Source of the DNA: Thermoleophilia bacterium SCSIO 60948
GTDB taxonomy: Bacteria; Actinomycetota; Thermoleophilia; Solirubrobacterales; 70-9
Assembly (NCBI GenBank): GCA_021496505.1
Contig: CP053031.1
Location: 1,976,001-2,040,000 of the forward strand
Length of the DNA stretch: 64,000 nt
Direction: 5' to 3'
In this document: positions 34,764 through 35,309 of the stretch, piece by piece
Layout: every line of letters starts with the position of its first letter
Position numbering within the stretch: position 1 is the stretch's first letter
The notes under the pieces: generated by a model
Database searches by the model: none
The model's input: only the letters and a program-made list of their open reading frames with translations
What the model was told of the DNA's origin: nothing
Translations under genes and position numbers: made by a program

Positions 34764-34937
34764 CTAGACGCGGTCCGGGGAGGTGGCAAGCGCAGCGGCC
34801 GACGAGAGCCGGGCGGCGGGCCTTCCATGGCGCAAGACGAGCACTTCCCGACCGGCGCTCGCCTGCTCGAGATAGAAGCCGAACCGATCCCGGAAGTCGT
34901 GCGCAGAGACCTCGAGTCGGTCCGCTGGTTCGGCGAG
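34764..34937 (-). pseudogene. Phd/YefM-like antitoxin segment without start codon
   Basis: Directly after the tRNA-Ala 3' end, the frame reads RLEVSAHDFRDRFGFYLEQA followed by SAGREVLVLRHGRPAARL, an almost complete Phd/YefM antitoxin fold (beta, helix, beta hairpin with the GRPAARL end). No ATG, GTG, TTG or CTG exists between the tRNA and this segment. The frame is instead continuous upstream through the tRNA gene into the nuclease remnant. No toxin gene (PIN, Doc, RelE) adjoins. It may be a remnant, or a gene initiated inside the tRNA sequence, where an in-frame ATG exists. Confidence 0.55.
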
Positions 34938-34939
34938 GA

Positions 34940-35012
34940 TGGAGCTGAGGGGGCTCGAACCCCTGACCTCCGCCATGCCATGGCGGCGCTCTCCCAGCTG
35001 AGCTACAGCCCC
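34940..35012 (-). tRNA. tRNA-Ala (anticodon GGC)
   Basis: The 73-nt sequence folds as a full cloverleaf: acceptor GGGGCTG/CAGCTCC (one G-U pair), D stem GCTC/GAGC, anticodon stem CCGCC/GGCGG around the loop ATGGCAT with anticodon GGC, and T arm AGGGG TTCGAGC CCCCT. The CCA end is not encoded. The anticodon reads GCC/GCU alanine codons, GCC being heavily used here. It lies wholly inside an open reading frame (see neighbours). Confidence 0.96.
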
Positions 35013-35309
35013 AAGTTCGTAATCGGCAGCCCACCTTATCGCGGCGCGCTGTCCGTTCTTGGCTGCATTCAATCGAAGCCGGAGGGCCTGGCGGCCCTCG
35101 ACCTCGGCGGCCGGAATGAGGTACGTCCGACGCAGATCTCCGCAGTAGGCCGCTACGAAGTCGATCTCATCGACGCCGTAGGTCGAACGTACATACCCCC
35201 GGGTTGTCGAGCGACAGCGACCGACCTGGACGTTATCGAGCCCTTGGCGTTCGCATCGAGCTGCTCGTTGAGATCGGACACCCGCCCATCGTCGCGCGAT
35301 CCGGCGCAC
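35013..35309 (-). pseudogene. remnant of a group I intron-associated PD-(D/E)XK-type nuclease
   Basis: The frame encodes GVDEIDFVAAYCGDLRRTYL, IPAAEVEGRQALRLRL and AKNGQRAAIRWAADYEL, which match my knowledge of the C-terminal half of the PDDEXK_5 (I-Ssp6803I-like) family. The N-terminal half, with the catalytic D and QxK strand, is missing: only a decayed VQVGRCRST remains and the DNA upstream soon meets the DivIVA-like gene. The frame does not stop at the end but enters the tRNA-Ala at codon 100 with no gap. Without the catalytic part it is very likely inactive. Confidence 0.6.

Follow-up and report, generated by a model that had tools for sequence, protein, structure and literature searches.

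The minus-strand reading frame that we followed up in a 64,000-nucleotide stretch of DNA from Thermoleophilia bacterium SCSIO 60948 (hereafter, the window) is probably part of a decayed, intronless element of the homing-endonuclease type that lies beside a tRNA gene, and in one clade of such elements a Phd-type domain is read in frame through the tRNA. We confirmed that the joined nuclease/tRNA/Phd frame is no accident of the window genome. That a frame stays open across a tRNA-Ala gene is in itself unremarkable, since such a tRNA normally has no stop codon in that frame; on the sequence comparison, it is the conservation of the frame in relatives, and not its mere openness, that goes beyond chance. 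A chance open frame was discarded as the whole story, since nuclease, tRNA, and Phd domain recur in the same order and frame.

The 181-codon frame and its domains

The whole open frame lies at 34764-35309 on the minus strand, with a GTG start at 35309 and a TAG stop at 34764-34766. Its 181 stop-free codons, described in an initial annotation, were borne out on the sequence; counted from stop to stop, the same frame comprises 315 aa. The tRNA-Ala(GGC) gene within it (34940-35012, minus strand, 73 nt; ARAGORN, plus an Rfam tRNA search of the genome) starts at base 35012, where codon 100 also begins, exactly as had been proposed. Its CCA is not encoded, the discriminator A being the last base (34940), and in the nuclease frame the tRNA is stop-free and translates as GAVAQLGERRHGMAEVRGSSPLSS.

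Upstream of the tRNA is the C-terminal part of a PDDEXK_5 nuclease (35013-35255, minus strand), delimited by Pfam PF11645 and by alignment with intact relatives. The initial annotation had placed the nuclease remnant within codons 1-99; PF11645 matched residues 19-99 (profile positions 56-137 of 138, E 6.2e-11), with the first few matched residues looking doubtful and codons 1-18 outside the match. The profile match begins past the catalytic core, and the catalytic D and QxK are missing from the window copy, in agreement with the earlier remark that the nuclease lacks its catalytic half. Downstream of the tRNA, the N-terminal DNA-binding domain of the Phd/YefM type (34797-34910, minus strand) was matched by PF02604 at residues 134-171 (profile positions 4-42 of 74, E 3.4e-7) and by TIGR01552 (phd_fam, NCBIfam; E 3.1e-6). 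The Phd/YefM-like part had been correctly recognized as far as this N-terminal half goes, the toxin-binding tail being absent. Both Pfam matches exceed the curated cut-offs, and the HMM search with PF11645 and PF02604 that had been suggested as a check supports both domains.

In a predicted structural model of the window frame, the Phd core has pLDDT values of 93-96 and the tRNA-encoded segment values of about 50 or below. The best structural matches of this model were I-Ssp6803I and the Phd-type antitoxins 4ZLX/3HS2, including an isolated Phd DNA-binding domain; the Foldseek E-values are at least 0.003, so these matches back the sequence matches and do not stand alone.

PDDEXK_5 genes lie beside tRNA genes

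Searching 199 genomes of the class with the window frame matched 106 of them, many of the weak matches being confined to the stretch encoded by the tRNA. The strongest matches have a longer nuclease of this family that lies directly against the first base of tRNA-Ala(GGC) and whose frame continues into the tRNA; relatives with the same gene order and an intact nuclease, for which the initial annotation had advised a search, do exist. A Pfam model search, the query of which contains no tRNA sequence, found a PDDEXK_5 gene in 106 of 399 class genomes. From the class, 135 distinct PDDEXK_5 elements were collected, of which 129 have a tRNA gene within 500 nt, 124 within 150 nt, and 88 within 50 nt, although the loci are related and the counts are not independent events. 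The six elements with no tRNA within 500 nt are all close to contig ends. The subset from the Pfam search (loci L148 on) has a tRNA at 58 of 61 elements, 54 of them within 150 nt. From the 46 tRNA genes found in the 3.42 Mb of the window genome (Rfam tRNA search), we estimate the chance of a random gene lying within 150 nt of a tRNA at about 0.5%.

Six target tRNAs were observed in the class (Ala-GGC 80, Ala-TGC 16, Thr-TGT 15, Tyr-GTA 13, Arg-CCG 4, and Ser-TGA 1), several of them having elements in either orientation. All three PDDEXK_5 genes of the window genome are at tRNAs (Ala-GGC, Ala-TGC, and Tyr-GTA). The second of these is an intact gene (L064, G000:C1:72107-72502, plus strand) that lies on the opposite strand to tRNA-Ala(TGC) and terminates about 40 nt away from the 3' end of this tRNA; other relatives are on the same strand, 5' of that tRNA. 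The third (L178, G000:C1:326530-326847, minus strand) is shorter, lies about 85 nt 5' of tRNA-Tyr(GTA), and belongs to a Tyr-specific branch. Elsewhere (Ala-TGC loci L203 and L205), two nuclease genes were seen in tandem upstream of the same tRNA-Ala(TGC).

In the rest of the phylum, most matches are again near tRNAs (Arg-TCT, Thr-CGT, Tyr-GTA, Pro-GGG, Ala-GGC); some nuclease-tRNA gaps outside the class are 400 nt or more, one locus (L295) being about 630 nt away. Phage and halovirus relatives are distant (25-33% identity) and mostly at tRNA genes. The annotated nuclease gene overlaps the 5' end of tRNA-Val by 21 nt in Synechococcus phage Sf-FR1 (L300 1429-1863) and that of tRNA-Ile by 7 nt in Pectobacterium phage My1 (L297 2483-2884). 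The nuclease lies 7 nt before tRNA-Asp in Streptomyces phage Forrest, directly after tRNA-Ser in Streptomyces phage Jada, and begins 2 nt after tRNA-Asn in Halorubrum virus HSTV-4; two phage loci (L306, L307) have no tRNA nearby in the annotation. Adjacency to tRNAs is less telling in phages because these relatives sit in phage tRNA clusters. A search of viral contigs with a narrower nuclease alignment gave no relatives, and a search for plasmid relatives found none. Genome contigs scanned with the window frame as the query gave no match; the narrower nuclease alignment gave matches.

The nuclease belongs to a homing endonuclease family

Judged by profile and core alignment, the nuclease genes belong to the I-Ssp6803I/PDDEXK_5 homing endonuclease family. 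A profile of 32 nucleases searched against the PDB matched 2OST (I-Ssp6803I) with E 6e-19, and PF11645 was matched by all 32 relatives. D32 and Q45 are invariant in the 32 aligned nucleases and K47 is present in more than 90%; the D..QxK core of the intact relatives aligns to 2OST. PADLOC labels the nuclease HEase. A tree of 118 nucleases sorts by target tRNA and orientation, with 19 changes as against 55 when the labels are shuffled; the Ala-GGC branch has a support of 99, and its nucleases split largely along host family lines.

Occupied and unoccupied loci

Two sister genomes of one genus have the upstream gene, the tRNA, and the downstream sequence in common and differ in the element. Their upstream homology ends 502 nt before the tRNA at the occupied locus (L254) and 28 nt before it at the unoccupied one (L256), and the downstream homology begins 143 and 5 nt after the tRNA, respectively. 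These limits on both sides are indicative that nuclease and Phd domain are gained or lost jointly on the two sides of the tRNA. A second occupied/unoccupied pair with continuous flanks was found (L255/L252), and unoccupied spacers at matching sites in sister genomes are short, 31-91 nt. At one unoccupied locus (L253), about 45 nt match the end of the nuclease with a score of 48, shuffles reaching at most 31; this deletion relic is indicative that some unoccupied loci are losses, and the contrast between occupied and unoccupied loci may record loss rather than insertion. A tRNA-Ala pattern search of 28 genomes gave exactly one GGC copy in 23; in the remaining five (G029, G041, G145, G180, and G198), the pattern gave other Ala tRNAs only, or nothing, and three of these (G029, G041, and G180) do have a GGC gene that the pattern missed. 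The tRNA-Ala(GGC) gene is therefore likely, on the pattern matches in these 23 genomes, to be single copy.

Decay is common among the Ala-GGC copies, 60 of 80 being near-complete and 20 truncated or broken. In the window, a possible relic of the nuclease N-terminus, LDANAKGS, lies in another frame at 35237-35260 on the minus strand (local alignments to intact N-termini, scores 25-34). The distance from its KG to the tRNA is about 230 nt, compared with about 390 in intact relatives (about 160 nt shorter), and we tentatively read the window copy as having undergone an internal deletion of roughly 150 nt and a frameshift. With the catalytic core lost from this copy, only the tRNA surely works now.

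A rival explanation is that the nuclease is no longer mobile and is a vertically inherited host gene, retained at tRNA loci because it serves the cell, for example by controlling tRNA expression or protecting the locus, and lost in many lineages. We consider this unlikely. The split of the Ala-GGC nucleases by host family, the rsfS/leuS context that recurs in several loci, the relic at the unoccupied locus, and a codon-position pattern of purifying selection are in its favour, whereas the patchy presence in the class (106 of 399 genomes), the 20 truncated or broken copies, the six target tRNAs with both orientations at several, the phage and halovirus relatives at other tRNAs, and the membership of a homing endonuclease family speak against it. 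Even for a homing-type element, the largely familial structure of the Ala-GGC clade suggests that it may be passed on chiefly by vertical descent and often lost.

The nuclease frame runs through the tRNA into a Phd domain

The nuclease frame enters the tRNA in 74 of the 80 Ala-GGC loci and stops before it in six. The nuclease stop is T8-A9-G10 of the tRNA in 14 of the 80 (e.g., L033, L107, L128); five more of the entering frames stop elsewhere inside the tRNA and the remainder after it. A Phd domain follows the tRNA at 19 loci, and at all 19 it is in the nuclease frame. The linker between tRNA and Phd domain varies from 14 to 35 nt, yet the summed length of tRNA and linker is divisible by three at every one of the 19. 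Four Phd loci have a 74-nt tRNA, within which the frame changes, and each of the four linkers is of the class that compensates for this. In one relative (L007), a single open frame encodes an intact nuclease, the tRNA-encoded segment, and the Phd domain, both domains being recognized by Pfam; at three of the 19 loci, the nuclease is frameshifted or broken at an earlier point, and its C-terminus, the tRNA, and the Phd domain are still one frame. L157 is another intact fusion; L117 is an intact nuclease that is not fused, and L126, from the cultured Svornostia abyssi J379, is an Ala-GGC copy lacking the Phd domain. Differences by codon position were 0.33, 0.30, and 0.51 in the Phd part and 0.36, 0.30, and 0.53 in the nuclease, a pattern by which the Phd part matches coding sequence. 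The Phd-bearing nucleases form one branch of 14 rows with a support of 95, which includes one nuclease without a Phd domain (L190); as this single branch extends across three host families, the Phd domain was probably acquired once.

The initial annotation had left a choice between capture of the Phd part and a start inside the tRNA. We favour a captured, fused domain over the product of a start inside the tRNA, with ATG, GTG, and TTG all absent between nuclease and Phd domain in 8 of the 19 loci. It is very improbable that the two parts are unrelated neighbours, that is, an upstream nuclease relic and an independent Phd antitoxin that starts inside or after the tRNA and shares the frame by chance. 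Such an arrangement would agree with the in-frame ATG inside the tRNA at some Phd loci, the window included, and with the naturally open frame of the tRNA; it would not explain why the domain is in frame at 19 of 19 loci despite varied linkers and a compensated tRNA length, the loci lacking any of the three start codons, or the single clade formed by the Phd-bearing nucleases. The neighbourhood also argues against it: no toxin family was found among the tested ORFs downstream of the window frame and of eight relatives, and the toxin-binding tail is missing. Matches to the Phd profile end at position 42 of 74 in the window, 39 in the L007 fusion, 44 in L144, and 50 in L140. The identity of the Phd part as a type II antitoxin was found to be unsupported, there being neither a toxin-binding half nor a toxin family in the tested neighbours, and the Phd part is probably not an antitoxin.

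The predicted tRNA promoter overlaps the nuclease codons

A TANNNT motif lies inside the last nuclease codons of 60 of the 61 Ala-GGC elements with a single-piece nuclease; synonymous resampling would lead one to expect 2.7 of 30 and 4.5 of 31 (about 7 in all). In the window, this position is occupied by TAAGGT (35033-35038, minus strand), which lies within nuclease codons and is a putative -10 box for the tRNA. The codons that hold the box encode conserved C-terminal peptides of the nuclease (NWA..., AATL/AARL), and unoccupied relatives usually have a TAAACT-like box a short distance 5' of the tRNA. The -10 boxes were recognized by their match to the consensus and the promoters are predicted ones; on this footing, the last nuclease codons at Ala-GGC loci likely contain the -10 box of the tRNA promoter, and one stretch of DNA appears to combine the roles of promoter, tRNA, and protein code.

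Group I introns

The initial annotation had suggested that the locus is the scar of a tRNA-targeting intron or integrated element, and of this the homing-type element at the tRNA stood and the intron scar did not: a search for a group I intron (RF00028) in eight tRNA-flanking loci found none, and a group I intron scar at the window tRNA was rejected. One relative (L268) does have its nuclease within a group I intron (RF00028, 63.7 bits), which splits a tRNA-fMet-like gene (Ser by ARAGORN, fMet by our reading of the exons); this is the classical I-Ssp6803I layout and the only intron-borne relative found. Its host (G703) is an actinobacterial assembly of 0.8 Mb. It is extremely improbable that a group I intron of the tRNA, or an integrase-type island, has left its scar at the locus, despite this relative and the first discovery of the family in a tRNA group I intron (reference 105 of PMC3984707), since the tRNA-flanking loci scanned have intact tRNAs and no group I intron, and unoccupied spacers of 31-91 nt leave little room for an integrase or att duplications.

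A possible mode of action

In the homing-type element that we propose, the Ala-GGC branch sits just 5' of the tRNA with its nuclease frame continuing into it; the tRNA either supplies the nuclease stop codon (often T8-A9-G10) or is crossed in full by the frame. In a sub-branch, a DNA-binding domain of the Phd/YefM type has been joined on beyond the 3' end of the tRNA, in frame with the nuclease. The predicted product is a nuclease, a tRNA-encoded linker, and a DNA-binding domain, and its coding sequence would enclose a complete tRNA gene and its promoter. The nuclease would cut empty tRNA alleles and spread by repair from the occupied copy; such intronless homing is reviewed in PMC3984707. Insertion may be tolerated, as the promoter stays with the tRNA and any 5' leader could be removed by RNase P. 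The protein would be translated through the tRNA, and the Phd domain may aid DNA binding or self-repression. Conceivably, though we would give it somewhat less than even odds, an essential tRNA lying in sense and in frame, with its promoter, inside a protein gene allows tRNA maturation (RNase P/Z) in competition with translation to set the amount of nuclease. The same processing is an argument against the proposed reading, for cuts by RNase P and RNase Z would destroy a read-through transcript.

Significance

The bacterial element with its nuclease at a tRNA is widespread and yet apparently undescribed; in the open-licence full-text literature, we found no account of PDDEXK_5 genes flanking tRNAs and none of such a reading frame through a tRNA. 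PDDEXK_5 genes, as sampled in Actinomycetota and phages, are thereby recast as mostly intron-free, tRNA-flanking elements, and it becomes testable within one family how homing endonucleases borne on introns and free-standing ones originate from each other, a matter as yet unsettled. The locus is also a rare case of a stretch of DNA apparently constrained in three ways, and the compensation of the frame points to real translation through a tRNA. The Phd part could be labelled as an antitoxin by annotation pipelines, as TIGR01552 matches it.

Comparison with known systems

I-Ssp6803I, from the group I intron of a Synechocystis tRNA-fMet gene (2OST), shares with the present nucleases the family, the D..QxK core, and a tRNA gene as host site. 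Here, however, the gene is intron-free, flanks the tRNA, and overlaps the promoter and body of the tRNA, and in one clade a Phd domain has been added. With Phd/YefM antitoxins (PF02604, TIGR01552), the added domain has the N-terminal DNA-binding fold in common; it differs from them in having no toxin-binding half and in following a nuclease and a tRNA as an in-frame fusion.

SegB and SegF of T4 are GIY-YIG proteins of phages. As free-standing homing endonucleases, they likewise have a nuclease gene outside an intron, and the title of reference 83 in PMC3984707 ties SegB to the T4 tRNA region. The elements described here differ from them in belonging to the PD-(D/E)XK family, in residing on bacterial chromosomes, and in abutting single essential tRNA genes with an overlap of frames. 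I-TevI is a modular homing endonuclease composed of a nuclease, a linker, and a DNA-binding domain that also represses its own gene. The layout predicted for the Phd-bearing clade is similar, with a nuclease, a flexible linker, and a small DNA-binding domain; the folds, however, are unrelated, and the linker here would be a translated tRNA gene.
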